Assembly (NCBI GenBank): GCA_030833925.1
Contig: JAURGE010000010.1
Span: forward strand, 1 to 62,595
Reading direction: 5' to 3'
Source: Alphaproteobacteria bacterium
Lineage (GTDB): Bacteria > Pseudomonadota > Alphaproteobacteria > Bin95
DNA length: 62,595 nt
The position numbers and the translations under genes were made by a program. Every line of letters starts with the position of its first letter. Position 1 is the first letter of the stretch. The notes under the pieces are model-generated. The model worked only from the letters and a program-made list of their open reading frames with translations, had not been told where the DNA came from and searched no databases. Below, piece by piece: positions 25,104 to 58,679 of the stretch.

Positions 25104-25342
25104 AGTTTGATTTTGACTGGGAGCGCTTTAGTTCAGCTTTCAGGACTGTGTTTAAATTGCTCATAAAGCAAACCCATGTCGTTAAGAGTAACTCTGGCAT
25201 CACCCCGCAGGAATTTTATCAAAGAAAAAAATTGTTCATAATTAATGCCTTAAAGATAAAGGGCGCCGAAGTTTTTTCAGGTCTATCGTCTGCTCTGGTG
25301 GTTTATTAAGCTCATTGTCAGTCTGGGCGTTAGGAGGTGGCA
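25104..25342 (+). other. Intergenic region between aspS and hyuA, no gene seen
   Basis: This 239-bp stretch contains no convincing gene or RNA. A short minus-strand frame near 25130-25245 reads like protein for about 38 codons but has no standard start codon with a ribosome-binding site. The strong TAGGAGG at 25331-25337 is the ribosome-binding site of hyuA. Confidence 0.4.
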
Positions 25343-27367
25343 GTGAGCAGTGTTTCATCACGTGCCGGAGTTGAGGTAGGCGGTACTTTTACAGATCTTG
25401 TTTATGTAAATGAGGGACGCATTGTTGTTGCGAAGGCTCCTTCAACCCCCACTTCTCCGGATCAGGGCGCTTTAAACGCATTAATAAAGGGCAATGTTAA
25501 TTTAGCGACACTTGATGAGCTTGCTCACGGCTCCACTGTTGCTACGAATGCAATTCTGGAACGTAAAGGTGCACGAGTAGCTTTGATTGTAACGGAGGGC
25601 TTCCGTGACTTGCTGCTTCTTCAGCGGCATCAGCGACGCAGCATCTATGATCTGAACTATGAGAAACCAGCTCCTGTCGTCCGTCGACGGGACACGATTG
25701 AAGTTTCAGAACGAGTTGGGCCTACCGGCGAAATAGTAAAGGACTTGGATGAGGCCAAAGCTCGAGAAGCTATAAAGGATCTGTTAGCTGAGCGCAGTTT
25801 TGATGTTGTTGCTATTTGCCTACTCAACAGTTTTGTAAATCCATCACACGAGGAGGCACTTGTCCGTATAGTCGAAGACACTTTGCCAGGGATGCCAACT
25901 GCTCCATCGCATAAGGTGGCAAAAGAGTTTCGTGAATATGAGCGTGCCTCCACAACAACTCTTTCGGCTTACGTACAGCCGGTAGTAAGCCGGTATCTAA
26001 ACCGTTTTGAGTCAAGCTTAACCACGAAGGGATTCAGTGGCGCTTTTTCGGTGATGCAGTCCAATGGTGGTCGAATGCCAGCGGCGGCAATGGCTGAAAA
26101 CGCAATCTCTGCTCTTTTTTCAGGACCAGCAGCTGGAGTGGTCGGGGCCGTCAGGCAGGCAGCGCGTTCGGGTTTCCAAAATCTGATAACTCTAGATGTC
26201 GGTGGAACTTCAACCGACGTATGTCTTGCGCCTGGGGGTCAACCTTCATTGGCATCCGCCACGGAGATTGATGGTCTACCAGTTAAAACGCCAGTGATAG
26301 ATATGGCTACAGTTGGCGCCGGTGGAGGCTCGCTCGTTTGGATGGACGATGGTGGCATGTTGCGAGTTGGGCCAGAAAGCGCCGGTGCAAATCCTGGACC
26401 TGCCTGCTACGGGCGTGGAGGTACAGCCCCAACTATTACTGACGCTCACGTCGTTCGGGGAACAATGCAAGCCAGTGCCTTTCTCGCTGGAGACATGCAC
26501 CTTGATGCAGAGGCGGCACGAAAATCCTTCGAGTCTCTCGCTGAGCGATTTGGCCAATCTCTTTTGGAAACAGCAGATGCAGCAATTCAGCTAGCAGAGT
26601 CTAATATCGCGCGAGCAATCCAGCGCATATCAACCGAGCGTGGACGTGATCCTCGCGATTACGCCCTGGTTGCGTTTGGTGGTGCTGGCCCCATGCATGC
26701 GGTCCGTGTGGCTGAGGAGATAGGGCTTTCAACAGTAATCGTGCCGCCATTTGCTGGGGTACTATCCGCTCTTGGTCTTCTGGTTGCGGATTACGCTCGA
26801 TACGATGCGCTCACGGACAGGCAACCCCTTGATGCTGAGGCGCCAAATACGGTGCGGAAGCATTTGGCTAGTCTAACTTGTTCAATTAAAGATCACTTCG
26901 CCGAACACAAATTAGCCTCACCGAAGCGTTTCTCTTACAGTTTGGACATGCGCTATAGAGGACAGGCATTTGAGGCTCCTGTGCAAATTGCCGAACAGGA
27001 TTTGGCCCACCTTAATGATCAAGGGTTGGAAGACCTCTTTCGAAAGGCTCATCAGCAGCTTTATTCATTTGCTAAACCTAAGGGGGAAGCCGTCGAAATT
27101 GTAGCGTATAGAGCTGGAGGCACGCTGGCTCCTCCTGGATTTCCAGAAACTCCTTTGGAGTATGAAGAGGTAGAGGGGACTAGAATTAATATATTTGAGC
27201 GTGGAAAAACCTCTCAAGCTCTTTTACTGCCTCGCTCGGGACTAACAAAAAATGCGATTGTCGGTCCAATCCTGATTGATGATGGACTGGCAACAGTCTT
27301 TACGCCTTTGGGTTGGTTAGCTCGACTAGACCCGTCAGGTAACATAATTATCGAAAAGGAGGTGTAA
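25343..27367 (+). CDS. hyuA: Hydantoinase/oxoprolinase subunit A
   Basis: HyuA works with HyuB in ATP-dependent opening of hydantoin, oxoproline or related cyclic amides. The 674-residue protein begins with an ASKHA-type GVEVGGTFTDLV loop (about 9), has TVATNAILERKGAR near 67, a second nucleotide-binding LDVGGTSTDVCLA near 285 and AFGGAGPMHAVRVAEEIG near 446. Two GTGs are possible; GTG 25343 sits five bases after AGGAGG and is preferred over 25337. hyuB follows after 3 bp. The true substrate is not readable from sequence: N-methylhydantoin, 5-oxoproline and acetone-type carboxylases share these folds. Confidence 0.93.
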   Translation: MSSVSSRAGVEVGGTFTDLVYVNEGRIVVAKAPSTPTSPDQGALNALIKGNVNLATLDELAHGSTVATNAILERKGARVALIVTEGFRDLLLLQRHQRRSIYDLNYEKPAPVVRRRDTIEVSERVGPTGEIVKDLDEAKAREAIKDLLAERSFDVVAICLLNSFVNPSHEEALVRIVEDTLPGMPTAPSHKVAKEFREYERASTTTLSAYVQPVVSRYLNRFESSLTTKGFSGAFSVMQSNGGRMPAAAMAENAISALFSGPAAGVVGAVRQAARSGFQNLITLDVGGTSTDVCLAPGGQPSLASATEIDGLPVKTPVIDMATVGAGGGSLVWMDDGGMLRVGPESAGANPGPACYGRGGTAPTITDAHVVRGTMQASAFLAGDMHLDAEAARKSFESLAERFGQSLLETADAAIQLAESNIARAIQRISTERGRDPRDYALVAFGGAGPMHAVRVAEEIGLSTVIVPPFAGVLSALGLLVADYARYDALTDRQPLDAEAPNTVRKHLASLTCSIKDHFAEHKLASPKRFSYSLDMRYRGQAFEAPVQIAEQDLAHLNDQGLEDLFRKAHQQLYSFAKPKGEAVEIVAYRAGGTLAPPGFPETPLEYEEVEGTRINIFERGKTSQALLLPRSGLTKNAIVGPILIDDGLATVFTPLGWLARLDPSGNIIIEKEV

Positions 27368-27370
27368 AAC

Positions 27371-29002
27371 ATGGCCCTTGATCCACTTGAGCAAGCGGTT
27401 GTTGCGCAATCCCTTATCGCGGCAGCTCAAGAAATGGGTGTCAAATTAATCAGATCTGCTCACTCTCCTATAGTTCGGGAAGCAGAAGATTGTTCAGCAG
27501 CATTGATGACTGCAGATGGTAACGTAGTGGCTCAAGCCGAACTTATTCCAATGCAATTGGGGTCAATAACGCACACATTTCGGCACTGTGCTGAAAGACA
27601 TGATTTAGAGGCCTTAGAAGAAGGGGATTTTTTTATCACGAATGATGCCTACCTCGGCGGTCAGCACATTCAGGACATTTTCCTCTTCAGCCCAATTTTT
27701 TTTCAAGGGCAGCGAATAGGTTTTTCAGCCACTGTTGTCCATCATATTGATCTCGGCGGTGGTGCCCCAGGCCTTAACCCAAATGCTACGGATATCCATT
27801 CAGAAGGAATTTTGTTCCCTGCGCTTAAGTTAAATAGGGACAGGGACTGGACACGAGGGCCTTGGGAAACTTTCGTGCGAGCTAATGTGCGTATGCCTGA
27901 TGCAACACTTGGTGATATTGATGCCCAATTTGCTGCCAATGCGGTCGGTGCAGAACGATTGATATCTCTTGCTAAGAAATATGGGGTGTCGAAGCTTGCT
28001 GAAGCAATGAAGGAGATGTTGGACTATTCCGAGCGCCGAGTGAGAAACGCTCTTCGGTCTGCGCCTGACGGGGTGTACGAAGGCGAGGACGCTATTGATG
28101 ATGACGGTCAGGGTTCAGGGCCAATTCTTGTAAAGGTAAGTGTCACCATTTCTGGTGATTCCATGAATATCGATTTTTCTGGGACTAGCCCTCAAGTTAA
28201 GTCAAATATGAACAATCCATTTGCCTCCACGGTGTCTTCTGCAATTGCCGCGGCAAAGTCGGTTTTGACTAACCCAGATATTCCTTTTAACGATGGCTGC
28301 TCTCGTGCAATCACAGTAACTGCCCCAGAGGGTTCGATCTTGAATCCTCGTTACCCGGCCCCAGTTCGCGCGCGTCTTTTGCCAAGTTATCGAGCCTTCG
28401 ACGCCGTAATGAAGGCGCTTTCGAAGGCTACTCCTGAGCGAGTTATCGCAACCGGGACCGACACAACCACTGCCTGCTGTCTATCCTGGCTAGGGCCCAA
28501 AGGTTATGACATTTACTTGGAAATATTTGGTGGTGGATATGGGGCAGGGCCACGAAATGATGGCGTTGATGGCGTCGACAGCCCTCTTTCGAATTGCGCT
28601 AACATTCCAGTCGAAGCCACTGATATGGATCATAGTTTCTTCAGATGTGTTGATTACAGCTTCGTGACTGGATCTGGGGGGAGGGGTCGAAGGCGTGGTG
28701 GTTTAGCCTTTCGTAAAGTTTATGAAATTCTAGAGAACGGGGTCACTTTTGCCACCTATGGTGACAGATTTAAGATCGCCGCCGACGGTATATTTGGAGG
28801 AGAACCAGGCTCCAAGGCCTGCAACCAGGTAATTCGCGGTGAAGAGATCATTGACCTGCCTTCAAAGTGCCAATTCACCCTCAAAAAGGGTGATCGGCTA
28901 ATCGTCCAGACGGCAGCTGGGGGGGGATATGGCCCACGTCAAGAGAGGCCTAATGCCCTAATAGCCCGAGATTCTGAAGATGGTTTGATGGCTGCAGAAT
29001 AG
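27371..29002 (+). CDS. hyuB: Hydantoinase B/oxoprolinase subunit
   Basis: This 543-residue partner of HyuA has the typical DPLEQAVVAQSLIAAAQEMGVKLIRSAHSPIVREAEDCSAA opening (about 3-43), FFITNDAYLGGQHIQDI (about 87) and HHIDLGGGAPG (about 121). It ends with a glycine-rich region (AAGGGYGPRQ) seen across the family. Its start lies 3 bp after hyuA, so the two subunits are made together. The last codons lie in a perfect palindrome shared with typA; the two reading frames end with the same residues, AAE. No amidohydrolase or racemase gene is nearby. Confidence 0.94.
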   Translation: MALDPLEQAVVAQSLIAAAQEMGVKLIRSAHSPIVREAEDCSAALMTADGNVVAQAELIPMQLGSITHTFRHCAERHDLEALEEGDFFITNDAYLGGQHIQDIFLFSPIFFQGQRIGFSATVVHHIDLGGGAPGLNPNATDIHSEGILFPALKLNRDRDWTRGPWETFVRANVRMPDATLGDIDAQFAANAVGAERLISLAKKYGVSKLAEAMKEMLDYSERRVRNALRSAPDGVYEGEDAIDDDGQGSGPILVKVSVTISGDSMNIDFSGTSPQVKSNMNNPFASTVSSAIAAAKSVLTNPDIPFNDGCSRAITVTAPEGSILNPRYPAPVRARLLPSYRAFDAVMKALSKATPERVIATGTDTTTACCLSWLGPKGYDIYLEIFGGGYGAGPRNDGVDGVDSPLSNCANIPVEATDMDHSFFRCVDYSFVTGSGGRGRRRGGLAFRKVYEILENGVTFATYGDRFKIAADGIFGGEPGSKACNQVIRGEEIIDLPSKCQFTLKKGDRLIVQTAAGGGYGPRQERPNALIARDSEDGLMAAE

Positions 29003-53774: not shown

Positions 53775-54935
53775 ATGACCGTTCAGAAAAGTGAAATAGA
53801 AGTCCGCATACTAGAGCGAGTTTCTGACGTCGCCCGCTCTGAGTGGGATGCTTGTGCCGGGCTTGATAACCCATTTTTGTGTCACGATTTTTTAAGTGCT
53901 CTTGAGGAAAGTCTCTCAGTATCAGCAGACGAAGGGTGGTTGCCTAGGCATATCGCTGTCTACGATGACGATGGAAGGCTCGCTGCGGCAATCCCCCTGT
54001 ATTTAAAGGGCCACTCTCAAGGTGAGTACATCTTTGACCACAGCTGGGCGCAAGCTTGGGAAAGGGCAGGTGGCCAGTATTACCCGAAGCTCTTGTCGGC
54101 AGTACCTTTCACGCCGGTGACTGGAAGGCGTTTTTTGGTTCGTCACGATCTAGATGAAACTTTGTACGAAAATAAACTCGTGCAGGCGCTGATCAAAGTC
54201 GTTGAGAAAACTGAAGTTGCTACTCTCCATGTTAATTTTTTAACGCACGGTGAATGGGAGCGAATGGGGAAATTAGGGTTTTTGCAGAGATCAGGACAAC
54301 AATTTCATTGGACCAATGCCAATTACAGAACATTCCAGGACTTCCTAGATGCGCTCTCAAGCCGGAAGCGTAAAAACATTCGAAAAGAGCGTGAAGCAGT
54401 AGCTGCTCAAGGCGTTAATATGAGAGTTTTTACCGGGGATAGCCTCAAGACAGAGCACTGGGATGCATTTTATCGCTTTTATAGAAATACGACTGACCGA
54501 AAATGGGGATGGGATTATTTAAAGCGACCTTTTTTCTCCTATCTCCATGAACGGATGTCCGACCGTGTTGCATTGATAATGGCGGAGCATGAGGGCCAAT
54601 GGGTTGCAGGCGCTTTGAATTTGATTGGCTCAGATACGCTTTATGGCCGTAATTGGGGTTGTACCGAGAACTTTAAAAATTTGCATTTCGAGACCTGCTA
54701 TTACCAGGCGATAGATTTTGCGATCCAACGTGGCTTGAAAAGAGTAGAGGCAGGTGCTCAAGGTCAACATAAATTGCAGCGGGGTTACCTACCTGTCGAA
54801 ACCTACAGTATTCACTACATTGCTGACCAAAATTTTCGTCGTGCAGTCGGAGATTTCCTAAAGAGAGAACGGCAGGCTGTCGGTGAAGAGATAGAATTTC
54901 TTGAGGAGTTTTCTCCCTTCAAAAAAAGTGGTTAG
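53775..54935 (+). CDS. GNAT-superfamily protein of the COG3146 (DUF482) type
   Basis: The 386-residue protein belongs to the COG3146/DUF482 group, called peptidogalycan biosynthesis-like proteins on weak grounds. Typical blocks are NPFLCHDFLSALEES (about 32), DHSWAQAWERAGGQYYPKLLSAVPFTPVTGRRFLV (about 86-120), SSRKRKNIRKEREA (about 195-208) and GAQGQHKLQRGYLP (about 333-346). It is expected to transfer an acyl or aminoacyl group; substrate is unknown. It lies 24 bp after the RidA gene, so the two are likely co-transcribed. Confidence 0.9.
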   Translation: MTVQKSEIEVRILERVSDVARSEWDACAGLDNPFLCHDFLSALEESLSVSADEGWLPRHIAVYDDDGRLAAAIPLYLKGHSQGEYIFDHSWAQAWERAGGQYYPKLLSAVPFTPVTGRRFLVRHDLDETLYENKLVQALIKVVEKTEVATLHVNFLTHGEWERMGKLGFLQRSGQQFHWTNANYRTFQDFLDALSSRKRKNIRKEREAVAAQGVNMRVFTGDSLKTEHWDAFYRFYRNTTDRKWGWDYLKRPFFSYLHERMSDRVALIMAEHEGQWVAGALNLIGSDTLYGRNWGCTENFKNLHFETCYYQAIDFAIQRGLKRVEAGAQGQHKLQRGYLPVETYSIHYIADQNFRRAVGDFLKRERQAVGEEIEFLEEFSPFKKSG

Positions 54936-54994: not shown

Positions 54995-55090
54995 ATGTCA
55001 TCATCTTATCAAGTGGATGACTTTACCTGGATCCCAAACATGTCGAGTTTTGGTGTCCAGTGGCTCATATGTCCCGGTCTGTGGCTGTAA
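54995..55090 (+). other. Possible short leader reading frame before the MFS gene
   Basis: A 31-codon frame begins with ATG 54995 after a GTAGGAAG stretch and ends with TAA at 55088-55090, five bases before ATG 55096 of the exporter gene. The peptide resembles nothing known. The spacing would allow translational coupling to an exporter start that itself lacks a good ribosome-binding site. The evidence is the Shine-Dalgarno and spacing only. Confidence 0.3.
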
Positions 55091-55095
55091 ATTAT

Positions 55096-56475
55096 ATGTC
55101 AGGTCGCGGAAGTCGAGCTATTGCAGGCCTTGCTGTGATAGGGTGTGGCGTCGCCGTAGGTCCATTAGATACAGCAGTAAACATCGCTTTTCCGGCAATT
55201 GTTGGAGATTTTCAATTACCCCTCGAAATGATCCAATGGATCATAATTTGTTATGTTCTGACCTACTCCAGTCTGACTTTGGTCGCGGGAAAACTAGGGG
55301 ATCGGTACGGGCGACGGAGAATATTTAAAATTGGCCTAGTAGCCAGCTGTGTTGGCCTTGCCGCGTGCTCACTAGCACCAACCTATGGAGCATTGCTGCC
55401 AGCAAGAGTTGCTCAAGGTTTGGGAACGGCGCTCGCTATTGCTTGCGGGCCAGCGCTTGCTACGTCTCTTTATCCTGAAAGTCAGCGGAGTCGGGTAGTC
55501 GGATACTACGCCGCAATGTTTGCTGCTGCGGGAGCATTGGGCCCAATAATCGGTGGTGCTTTGGCGGATGCTTTTGGTTGGCAGGCGGTTTTTTGGTTTC
55601 GAATTCCATTGGCTTGCTCAGTTCTTGCGCTTGTTTGGTTGTTACCGGCAGACCGACATAATTCAGATAGAGAAAAGCCATTCGACTTTTTGGGCGCTTT
55701 TCTTCTTGTTGTCATGCTTGCAGGTCTTGCTGTAGCTCTCAGCCTTGCTAGGTGGAGCCGGACCACGGAAGCCATATTTGTGGCACTAATGGTATTCGTT
55801 ACATTGGTCGTGTTTGTTAGAGTTGAGCGAACGGCAGCAGATCCTGTTCTGCGGATTGATGCTTTTAGAAATTTACGATTTTGTATTTTAAATTTCCTAA
55901 ATGTAATCGTCTGCGGGGCAACCTTCACCCCGTTGCTTTTTACCCCTTTCTTTTTGACCCAGCATGCTGGATTTGATGCGGCGGCGGGAGGTTTAGCTCT
56001 CGCGATGGGTGCTTGTGGGACAACGATTGCCGCAGCATTAGCCGGTCAGCTAATCGAGCGAGTATCTGGAGGGGTGGTGGCTATAGTCGGTGCAGGCCTA
56101 GCGGCCTGCGGCCTTGGACTGGTTGGCCAGGTGCAGGTAGATGGAAGCTTGATGGAGGTCATTCTTACTCTTGCAATAGCAGGCATTGGCCTAGGTTTTG
56201 TTCAGACTGCTTACTTAGATGGTGTTACGGGCCTATTGCCAGAAAAAGACCGAGGCGTTGCAGGCGGACTAACTATGGTAACCAGAACTATTGGCGTCAT
56301 TGCAGCCGCGTCTATGCTAACTTTGCTTTTCAGTCAGGTGGAGACTACTGCATTAGGGGGTGGTTTGGCATCGGCAGACGCCTTTTTAAAGGGCTACAGC
56401 ATGGTGTTTTCAGTTGCTGCCTCTGCTGCAGTCTTTGGTGCTGTGTTAGCTTTGGCCCTCTACCGTCCCAGATAA
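55096..56475 (+). CDS. MFS exporter, DHA2-type (fourteen-helix)
   Basis: The protein, 459 residues from ATG 55096, is a major facilitator superfamily drug-type exporter. It has LDTAVNIAFPAIVGDFQ in the first helix, KLGDRYGRRRIFKIGL (motif A) at about residues 71-86 and QGLGTALAIACGPAL (about 115), with some fourteen hydrophobic segments. The start is uncertain: GTG 55060 and ATG 55069 add up to twelve residues, but 55096 gives the normal short N-terminal tail and follows a small upstream frame. Substrate is unknown. The YrdC-like gene follows 27 bp later. Confidence 0.92.
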   Translation: MSGRGSRAIAGLAVIGCGVAVGPLDTAVNIAFPAIVGDFQLPLEMIQWIIICYVLTYSSLTLVAGKLGDRYGRRRIFKIGLVASCVGLAACSLAPTYGALLPARVAQGLGTALAIACGPALATSLYPESQRSRVVGYYAAMFAAAGALGPIIGGALADAFGWQAVFWFRIPLACSVLALVWLLPADRHNSDREKPFDFLGAFLLVVMLAGLAVALSLARWSRTTEAIFVALMVFVTLVVFVRVERTAADPVLRIDAFRNLRFCILNFLNVIVCGATFTPLLFTPFFLTQHAGFDAAAGGLALAMGACGTTIAAALAGQLIERVSGGVVAIVGAGLAACGLGLVGQVQVDGSLMEVILTLAIAGIGLGFVQTAYLDGVTGLLPEKDRGVAGGLTMVTRTIGVIAAASMLTLLFSQVETTALGGGLASADAFLKGYSMVFSVAASAAVFGAVLALALYRPR

Positions 56476-56502: not shown

Positions 56503-57213
56503 ATGCTTTCGGAAACACCGTTCATGGCTGCAGAGGCTGACAGGGCCTTTGAAGTTCTGAAGGCCGGCGGTATTGCGATTATGCCGATGGATGTTGGCTA
56601 CTCTGCGATAGGAGGTTCTTACTCTGCGCTGCGGCGTATATTTGACGCAAAACGCCGCGAGCCTACTAAGTTCAACGCTATGATCGGGGACTGTGAACTC
56701 GCCCGCGAACTTTATTTGTTACCGGGTCTAAGTTGGGATGTTTTTGATGCAATAACTCGAGACGATGATTTGCCGTTGGGTGTTATTGGACCGTGCCGCA
56801 TGGATCATCCAATGCTCGCTTCTATGGAGCCGGAAGCGCTTAGGATGTCGACGAAGGATAATACCCTTTGCATGTTGACTAATGCTGGACCATTTCATGC
56901 AGCTATATCCCGCCGTAGTCGAGAAGCTAGCCACCCTCTTTTTGGATCCTCAGCTAATCTCTCTATGCAGGGAACAAAGTTTCGTGCCGTTGAAATCGAA
57001 CCAGACATTCTTGCTATCGCAGACGTTGTAATCGACCATGGACTGCGAAAATTTTGGCCTTACCAGGCCTCTTCAACCTTATTGAACTTGATAACTTTTG
57101 AGGTGGTACGTTTTGGCTCTGGCTATGAATTGATTCAGGACACGCTAGAACGGCGCTTTAATATCAATTTGCCTGCAGCCCCTTCGCCCCTTCGAATTCA
57201 GGGAAGAGATTAG
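56503..57213 (+). CDS. YrdC/Sua5-like protein with altered active-site loop
   Basis: The 236-residue protein has the YrdC-like fold used by threonylcarbamoyl-AMP synthases and HypF. The family loop PTDTVYGL reads PMDVGYSAIGG (28-38), the basic AKRREPTKF segment lies near 49-57, and the SSANLS motif is at about 150. Key loop residues differ, so a housekeeping tRNA role is unlikely; it may carbamoylate or bind something else. AGGAG precedes ATG 56503. Its stop codon overlaps the start of the D-aminoacylase gene by one base (TAGTG), tightly linking the two. Confidence 0.88.
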   Translation: MLSETPFMAAEADRAFEVLKAGGIAIMPMDVGYSAIGGSYSALRRIFDAKRREPTKFNAMIGDCELARELYLLPGLSWDVFDAITRDDDLPLGVIGPCRMDHPMLASMEPEALRMSTKDNTLCMLTNAGPFHAAISRRSREASHPLFGSSANLSMQGTKFRAVEIEPDILAIADVVIDHGLRKFWPYQASSTLLNLITFEVVRFGSGYELIQDTLERRFNINLPAAPSPLRIQGRD

Positions 57214-58679
57214 TGCTAACGAGAGAGCATTTCGATGTAATACTAGCTGGTGGTGACCTAATCGATGGTTCAGGATCCTCACGGTTTGTCGCTGATGTGG
57301 GCATCCTCGGAGATCACGTTGCTGCCATTGGTGACCTTTCTGATGCGTCTGCTGATGAGCGCCTTGATGTGTCCGGTAAAGTCGTGGCGCCAGGTTTCAT
57401 TGATGCTCACACCCATGACGATCGTTTGCTCTTTGCAGATCCGGCAATGAAGCCAAAATCATCTCAGGGTGTTACAACGGTGATAGTTGGCAATTGCGGC
57501 GTCAGCCTCGCGCCATTCTCAGCTCCAGGCCGACCAAAACCTCCTTTGGATTTGATTTTTGGTCTAGACCCAGTTCGCTTTCCAACTTTTTCTGGTTTTC
57601 TTGATGCAGTTGATCGGCAGCCTGCTGCAACCAACGCAGCATTCCTTATTGGACACCAGACGGTGCGTGTCCGTGAGGTGGTCGATCTCAACCGGCCAGC
57701 CGAATATGACGAAATTTTAGCTATGCGATCCCATGTGGCGGAGGCCATGGAAGCGGGAGCTATAGGACTTTCAACTGGGTTGTTTTACCCTCCAGCTCGC
57801 GCTGCAACTACTGATGAAGTTGTAGCATTGACCGAAGTAGCTGCTGCTGCTGGCGGACTTTACGCTACACACCTTCGCGACGAAGGCGCAAAGCTATTAG
57901 ATTCAGTGAAAGAGGCGCTTGAAATAGGTCGCAGAACGAATGCTCCCGTTGTATTGTCTCATCATAAGGCCTCAGGTGTTGCAAATCATGGAAAAGTCAA
58001 AGAGTCGTTACCTTTAATTCGGGAGGCTCGTAAGTCCCAGAAGGTAGCGTTAGACGTTTATCCGTACATAGCTAGTTCAACAGTTCTATTATCAGAGCGT
58101 GTGGCTGACTCATCAAAAGTTCTCATTACATGGTCTGAGCCGATGCCCGAGGCAGCAGGTCGTGATTTAGCTGAACTTGCGATGGAGTATCAGCAAAGTC
58201 CCATTGCTATGGTCTCCCGCTTGCAGCCTGCAGGCGCAATCTACTTTTCTATGGCTGAGGATGATGTTCGAGAGGTTATATCCTTCGAAGATGTTATGAT
58301 TGGATCTGATGGGATTCCTCATGACGAGAAGCCTCACCCTCGACTTTGGGGAACCTTTCCTCGCATCCTTGGTTACTACGTACGAGAGGTAGGTTTGTTT
58401 TCACTGGAGGAGGCCGTTCGACGAATGACTTCTCTACCCGCTTCCGTTTTTGGCCTCAAAGACCGCGGCTGCATCCGTGAGGGTGCTTATGCAGATATAA
58501 CAATTTTCAACCCTGAGACTATTATCGACAGTGCTAACTTTGATAGCCCTACGCAGCCTGCTGAAGGAATTCTAGCAGTGATGACGAACGGAACTTTTAT
58601 TTGGAGAAATGGCAAGCCCACAGGAGCTCGTCCCGGCCGTGCTCTCCGTCTTCGTGATCAGGTGATGCCGAAAAACTAA
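57213..58679 (+). CDS. N-acyl-D-amino-acid deacylase family amidohydrolase
   Basis: The 488-residue protein is a metal-dependent amidohydrolase. Metal ligands include His66 and His68 in GFIDAHTHDDRLLF, later histidines in ATHLRDEGAKL and VLSHHKASG, and the aspartate in MIGSDGIPHDEKPHPRLWGTFPR (about 366). It fits D-aminoacylases, which remove N-acyl groups from D-amino acids; some relatives act on N-acyl-D-glutamate or aspartate or on dihydropyrimidine-type rings. GTG 57213 overlaps the previous stop. The partner YrdC-like gene and the exporter upstream suggest one operon. Confidence 0.93.
   Translation: MLTREHFDVILAGGDLIDGSGSSRFVADVGILGDHVAAIGDLSDASADERLDVSGKVVAPGFIDAHTHDDRLLFADPAMKPKSSQGVTTVIVGNCGVSLAPFSAPGRPKPPLDLIFGLDPVRFPTFSGFLDAVDRQPAATNAAFLIGHQTVRVREVVDLNRPAEYDEILAMRSHVAEAMEAGAIGLSTGLFYPPARAATTDEVVALTEVAAAAGGLYATHLRDEGAKLLDSVKEALEIGRRTNAPVVLSHHKASGVANHGKVKESLPLIREARKSQKVALDVYPYIASSTVLLSERVADSSKVLITWSEPMPEAAGRDLAELAMEYQQSPIAMVSRLQPAGAIYFSMAEDDVREVISFEDVMIGSDGIPHDEKPHPRLWGTFPRILGYYVREVGLFSLEEAVRRMTSLPASVFGLKDRGCIREGAYADITIFNPETIIDSANFDSPTQPAEGILAVMTNGTFIWRNGKPTGARPGRALRLRDQVMPKN

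Follow-up and report, generated by a model that had tools for sequence, protein, structure and literature searches.

Gene content of the locus

The window (the whole 62,595-nucleotide stretch of DNA analysed here) carries a MFS-YrdC-deacylase run of genes on the plus strand, with the following features:

55060..56475, plus strand: MFS transporter, EmrB/DHA2-like, upstream of the other two genes (MFS_1, 172.8 bits)
56503..57213, plus strand: YrdC-like (TsaC-fold) paralog, 236 aa, ATG start (PF01300, 37.9 bits; AlphaFold and Foldseek)
56584..56604, plus strand: PMDVGYS, residues 28-34, counterpart of the PT(D/E)TVYG threonine-site loop (alignment)
56650..56670, plus strand: K50-x-R52...K56 (KRREPTK), retained ATP/PPi-site residues (invariant in the alignment; K and R in 47/47 sequences)
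56947..56958, plus strand: SSAN, residues 149-152, retained SxN ATP motif (invariant in the alignment; S and N in 47/47 sequences)
57213..58679, plus strand: D-aminoacylase / N-acyl-D-amino acid deacylase, 488 aa, GTG start (phmmer match to 1m7j)

The ATG of the YrdC-like gene follows the MFS stop codon after a gap of 27 bp and is preceded by an AGGAG ribosome site. At the junction with the deacylase gene (...AGATTAGTGCTA...), the last base of the TAG stop (57211-57213) is the first base of the GTG start. The overlap described in the initial annotation was confirmed, at one shared base; the words 'fused pair', also used there, are not correct. The deacylase had an Amidohydro_3 domain in Pfam and could be aligned throughout with the D-aminoacylase of A. 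faecalis (1m7j; residues 6-479, E 1e-159 in phmmer). The HTHDD, NCG, THLRDEG, SHHK and GSDG motifs of 1m7j were all present in the alignment.

The gene upstream, previously read as an exporter, does encode a DHA2-type MFS protein. Its score with the EmrB/DHA2 model (TIGR00711, 178.5 bits) was under the model cut-off, so export is likely rather than proven. Further upstream in the same plus-strand run, a full-length FemAB_like protein (PF04339) is encoded at 53775-54935.

Motifs and fold of the YrdC-like protein

Proteins with a PF01300 domain are usually annotated as L-threonylcarbamoyladenylate synthase or as 'Sua5/YciO/YrdC/YwlC family'. Named groups within PF01300 are YrdC/TsaC, Sua5 and YciO (PMC3223725, PMC12506659). 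The window protein scored 37.9 bits against Sua5_yciO_yrdC (PF01300, cut-off 25.1), and this gathering score together with the predicted fold places it in the TsaC-fold superfamily. With TIGR00057, the curated TsaC family, it reached 32.5 bits, where the cut-off is 123.2. The AlphaFold model had a pLDDT of 86.8 and a pTM of 0.86. Its best Foldseek match was SMU.1377c (E 9.6e-12), followed by TsaC2 with TC-AMP or N-carboxy-L-threonine and then by Sua5, the E values ranging overall from about 1e-12 to 1e-8.

In P. abyssi numbering, K56xR58 and S143xN145 serve ATP, while T33, S181 and R195 serve threonine (PMC10321239). The KxR/SxN tetrad was invariant in the alignment of 47 subfamily sequences. 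T33 is one of the two threonines of the PTxT loop, and both are missing from the window protein, which has M and V in their places. Within the subfamily, the first threonine was found in 2/47 sequences and the second in 1/47, whereas both were present in 25/25 TsaC proteins from the same genomes. The PMDVGYS loop reported in the initial annotation for this YrdC-fold protein is thus a real loss of the threonine site that extends to the whole subfamily. The arginine of the TsaC AVRxP loop is leucine in 42/47 subfamily sequences, a replacement by which catalysis could be altered or lost.

Housekeeping tsaC in the genome

A PF01300 profile search of the window's genome found two genes, the YrdC-like gene and a tsaC right at the beginning of contig C160. 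Only the 3′ portion of this tsaC is present, because the gene is cut by the contig end, and it runs into tsaD. Two congeners, G001 and G004, have a full-length tsaC ortholog with PTDTVYG, followed by tsaD. The YrdC-like gene was therefore rejected as the housekeeping tsaC, and the normal copy that the initial annotation had proposed looking for does exist elsewhere in the genome. An additional and better PF01300 match was found in 27/28 genomes carrying a YrdC-like gene. The sole carrier lacking a second match was G221, an assembly that is 98% complete.

Conservation of the MFS-YrdC-deacylase gene order

The order MFS-YrdC-deacylase was common to the window's genome (G000), G001 and G004, and the triple was restricted to this genus. 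The YrdC-like protein was 88% identical to the window copy in G004 and 80% identical in G001, with tight spacing in both. In a further congener, G002, the MFS and deacylase genes are intact and a 47-aa C-terminal YrdC remnant lies between them. A search of the G002 genome detected no other YrdC-like copy. This erosion shows that the YrdC-like gene is dispensable in G002.

In the sister genus, deacylase orthologs (about 60% identity) occur with neither a YrdC-like gene nor an MFS gene. No D-aminoacylase was found within 7 kb of any of the roughly 37 YrdC-like loci outside the window's genus. Since the pair does not extend beyond a single genus, is eroded in G002 and has a lone deacylase as its counterpart in the sister genus, the deacylase can do without the YrdC-like protein, which makes a dedicated two-gene system unlikely. 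The pairing is an ordinary local arrangement of genes within this genus. The expectation that it would recur in other species thus failed, and the dedicated system built on it falls as well, each partner being found alone elsewhere.

Distribution and phylogeny of the subfamily

The window protein falls into a TsaC-fold subfamily, so far uncharacterised, that is split from the t6A enzyme. The subfamily has a patchy distribution within Alphaproteobacteria and is rare among Betaproteobacteria. An even sample of the class (385 genomes) contained 31 genomes with a match, 26 of them a clear one, and in a sample of the phylum matches were found in 2/398 genomes. Relatives at 48-58% identity came from Alphaproteobacteria, a Baikal betaproteobacterium and Roseomonas, and one at 47% identity is located on a Variovorax replicon. 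No phage match to the YrdC-like gene was found and plasmid matches were limited to three records, the best being the same 2.5-Mb Variovorax replicon; phage or plasmid cargo was rejected on these grounds.

In the tree, the subfamily formed a branch separate from TsaC (SH-aLRT 96). The window's genus was a group with a support of 100 within one of two large clades, although several long branches make the deep placements unsure. Paralogs of clades A and B often adjoin and are divergently oriented in L049, L050, L051, L052 and L055 (genomes G206, G367, G197, G290 and G078, respectively), and Variovorax (L046) has two subfamily paralogs in tandem. The side-by-side position of clade A and clade B paralogs suggests a working pair or a heteromer. 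Two further branches were noted. YrdC-like genes in family f104 (L065, L066 and L110, from G221, G310 and G387) encode PTTVGYV or PSYVGYV and have neighbours other than HyuB. A divergent branch (L042-L045, from G311, G377, G046 and G271) has the loop KLDIGYG or KANIGYG and scored about 100 bits with the subfamily profile.

Gene neighbourhoods outside the genus

Neighbours outside the genus were identified by tblastn with annotated representatives and by ORF calling with a codon-position filter in these G+C-rich loci. Genes recurring across families were HyuA/HyuB, isochorismatase-type hydrolases, PEP-mutase/ICL lyases, MmgE/PrpD, GntR regulators and dihydropyrimidinase. MmgE/PrpD was directly adjacent to the YrdC-like gene in 8 genomes of three families. 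The nearest models of the neighbouring HyuA/HyuB were caprolactamase and acetophenone carboxylase, and the isochorismatase-type hydrolases weakly resembled biuret hydrolase and RutB. The guess of carbamoyl or amide chemistry in the initial annotation survives only indirectly, in that the subfamily elsewhere lies beside ATP-dependent amide/ureide hydrolases.

In G172 the order was ABC permeases, HyuA, HyuB, PEP-mutase-like lyase, isochorismatase and YrdC-like gene, the last being flanked on its other side by genes for a CoA transferase and an HMG-CoA-lyase-like protein (these two and the permeases were identified by eye). At this locus (L101:2717-15991, contig C5), the permeases are polyamine-transporter-like and the CoA transferase is CaiB-type, and a second isochorismatase and an alcohol-dehydrogenase-like gene are also present. 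The HyuA/HyuB-lyase-isochorismatase-YrdC set was recovered from three other genomes of the same family, with HyuA cut off in one. The tandem Variovorax genes lie among TctC, PEP-mutase/ICL lyase, CoA ligase and LeuC/LeuD-like genes. Other lineages had other neighbours, either an acyl-CoA dehydrogenase with a phosphoglycerate-mutase-like gene or TctC with a CoA ligase. Literature searches returned nothing connecting YrdC paralogs with hydantoinase/caprolactamase genes or with D-aminoacylase.

The complete HyuB copies encoded close to YrdC-like genes formed one clade and were 63-69% identical to the copy in L064. A class-wide search detected this linked clade in 19/26 clear carriers of the YrdC-like gene and in 9/359 other genomes (Fisher p 5.5e-20). 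When the eight genomes supplying the HyuB query were left out, it was present in 11/18 carriers against 9/359 others (p 1e-11). Relatedness was controlled roughly, by counting families, and the linked clade occurred in 8/10 carrier families. HyuB lay within 7 kb of the YrdC-like gene in 7/8 families having both, compared with 0.15 expected, a statistic that is partly circular because the HyuB clade and query were picked for lying beside a YrdC-like gene. Among HyuA proteins of the linked clade, those at L052:2922-5348, L056:9250-11766 and L061:3298-5751 had an N-terminal extension of about 100 or more residues, coiled-coil-like (e.g. SDLTNWFDSKLADLQEQIDKL), preceding the hydantoinase domain; it is absent from L064 and L101.

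The same class-wide search found the linked HyuB clade absent from the window's genus, and the catabolic link is therefore borrowed from other families. The window does have a HyuA/HyuB pair of its own, at 25337-29002. It belongs to another clade, 31-35% identical to the YrdC-linked copies, and lies 27 kb away, for which reasons it was rejected as a partner of the YrdC-like gene.

Proposed function and alternative explanations

Since the usual neighbours elsewhere are genes for ATP-dependent cleavage of amides and ureides, the YrdC-like protein is probably an enzyme turned to the breakdown of small molecules and not half of a two-gene system. Our preferred reading, at a probability of about one half, is a TsaC-fold enzyme of amide/ureide catabolism that was repurposed to adenylate another small carbamate or amine and that this genus recruited into a D-aminoacylase operon. 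The catalytic activity of the subfamily, its chemistry by way of an adenylate, the kind of substrate and any role in the window operon are inferred. The protein most likely still binds Mg-ATP. It would convert a carboxylated small amine (carbamate), or else a related acid, to its adenylate, with release of PPi, and the substrate would be other than N-carboxy-L-threonine and would belong to small-molecule amide/ureide catabolism. Carbamates arise when ureides and N-carbamoyl compounds are hydrolysed, and the intermediate of TsaC, N-carboxy-L-threonine, is itself a carbamate; we therefore propose carbamates as a reasonable substrate class. In the window's genus, the YrdC-like gene was placed in one operon with the MFS transporter and the D-aminoacylase. 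There, a D-amino acid or some other amine is a possible substrate; alternatively, the protein may be carried along as a passenger.

The last option, a dispensable accessory that owes its position to chance in the gene order of a single genus and whose role is unrelated to the deacylase or the exporter, is somewhat unlikely. The remnant in G002 beside intact MFS and deacylase genes, the confinement of the pair to one genus and the diverse contexts elsewhere are consistent with it. Against it, the triple is retained in two other congeners at 80-88% YrdC identity and with tight spacing, and the active-site residues are intact. A passenger in this genus is compatible with the preferred catabolic reading of the subfamily as a whole. 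The one-base overlap and the identical order in G000, G001 and G004 would also fit the proposal of the initial annotation, in which the YrdC-like protein and the D-aminoacylase modify and release carbamoyl or acyl amino acids that the MFS protein exports. The absence of the pair from the roughly 37 outside loci, the erosion in G002 and the sister-genus deacylases lacking YrdC and MFS make such a system highly improbable. What stands of that proposal is an extra, non-housekeeping YrdC-fold protein with a genuinely altered motif; its coupling to the deacylase does not.

A second threonylcarbamoyl-AMP synthase, acting as a backup or condition-specific t6A enzyme, would account for the shared fold, the retained KxR/SxN and the weak TIGR00057 match. 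It is nevertheless very improbable, as that match is far under its cut-off, both threonine-site threonines are gone, a separate tsaC-tsaD exists and the neighbours are catabolic rather than translational. An inactive or regulatory TsaC-fold protein, such as one sensing ATP or a metabolite of the pathway, is suggested by the replaced loop threonines and AVRxP arginine and by the GntR regulators often nearby. We regard this as improbable because the ATP/PPi residues are strictly conserved (47/47), which argues for retained chemistry.

The catabolic reading can be taken a step further, although in this form it is rather unlikely. The subfamily might constitute a new class of enzymes, free-standing TsaC-fold ligases that adenylate a carbamate (an N-carboxylated amine, e.g. 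a product of ureide or N-carbamoyl hydrolysis) in an uncharacterised catabolic pathway with HyuA/HyuB, isochorismatase-type hydrolases, PEP-mutase/ICL lyases and MmgE/PrpD, sometimes as a pair of clade A and clade B paralogs. A group with the ATP site but lacking the threonine site, located near genes of amide/ureide catabolism, would offer a testable example of a universal tRNA-modification fold put to use in small-molecule metabolism. It would also caution against assigning t6A synthesis automatically. The HyuA/HyuB-isochorismatase-lyase-YrdC cluster represents an unassigned pathway in its own right, and a cultured relative would be the place to look for its substrate.

Comparison with known systems

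The window deacylase is an ordinary full-length member of the group of the A. faecalis D-aminoacylase, unusual only in having a YrdC neighbour. With TsaC/Sua5 the subfamily shares the fold (Foldseek probability 1.00 to TsaC2/Sua5), the KxR and SxN ATP residues, and a serine and an arginine that align with the remaining threonine-site residues. It differs in the lost PTxT, in the mostly leucine position of the AVRxP arginine and in its low TIGR00057 score. Unlike TsaC, it is an extra copy alongside the housekeeping gene and has catabolic neighbours.

YciO is likewise an accessory PF01300 paralog and also has a G in the loop (PTDSGYA, compared with PMDVGYS). In E. coli YciO, KxR/SxN is lost (R-x-L, S-x-M) and the first loop threonine is kept, which is the reverse of the subfamily. 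The retained KxR/SxN ruled out an identification as YciO. YciO adjoins rnm (PMC12506659), and no rnm was noticed among the inspected neighbours of YrdC-like genes.

The best match of known structure, in both sequence and structure, was SMU.1377c of Streptococcus mutans (PDB 3l7v), which has relatives on Rhizobium plasmids. These proteins have KxR/SxN and a VGY loop, as in the subfamily, but they share about 21% identity with it, form a separate branch and keep the first threonine (PTKVGY). The YrdC domains of HypF and TobZ, which form carbamoyl-adenylate, occur in fusion with a Kae1-like domain and start from carbamoyl phosphate, whereas the subfamily protein has no such fusion. They nonetheless place the TsaC fold on a substrate other than threonine (PMC10321239; HypF was also a Foldseek match), and the fold can therefore change its substrate.
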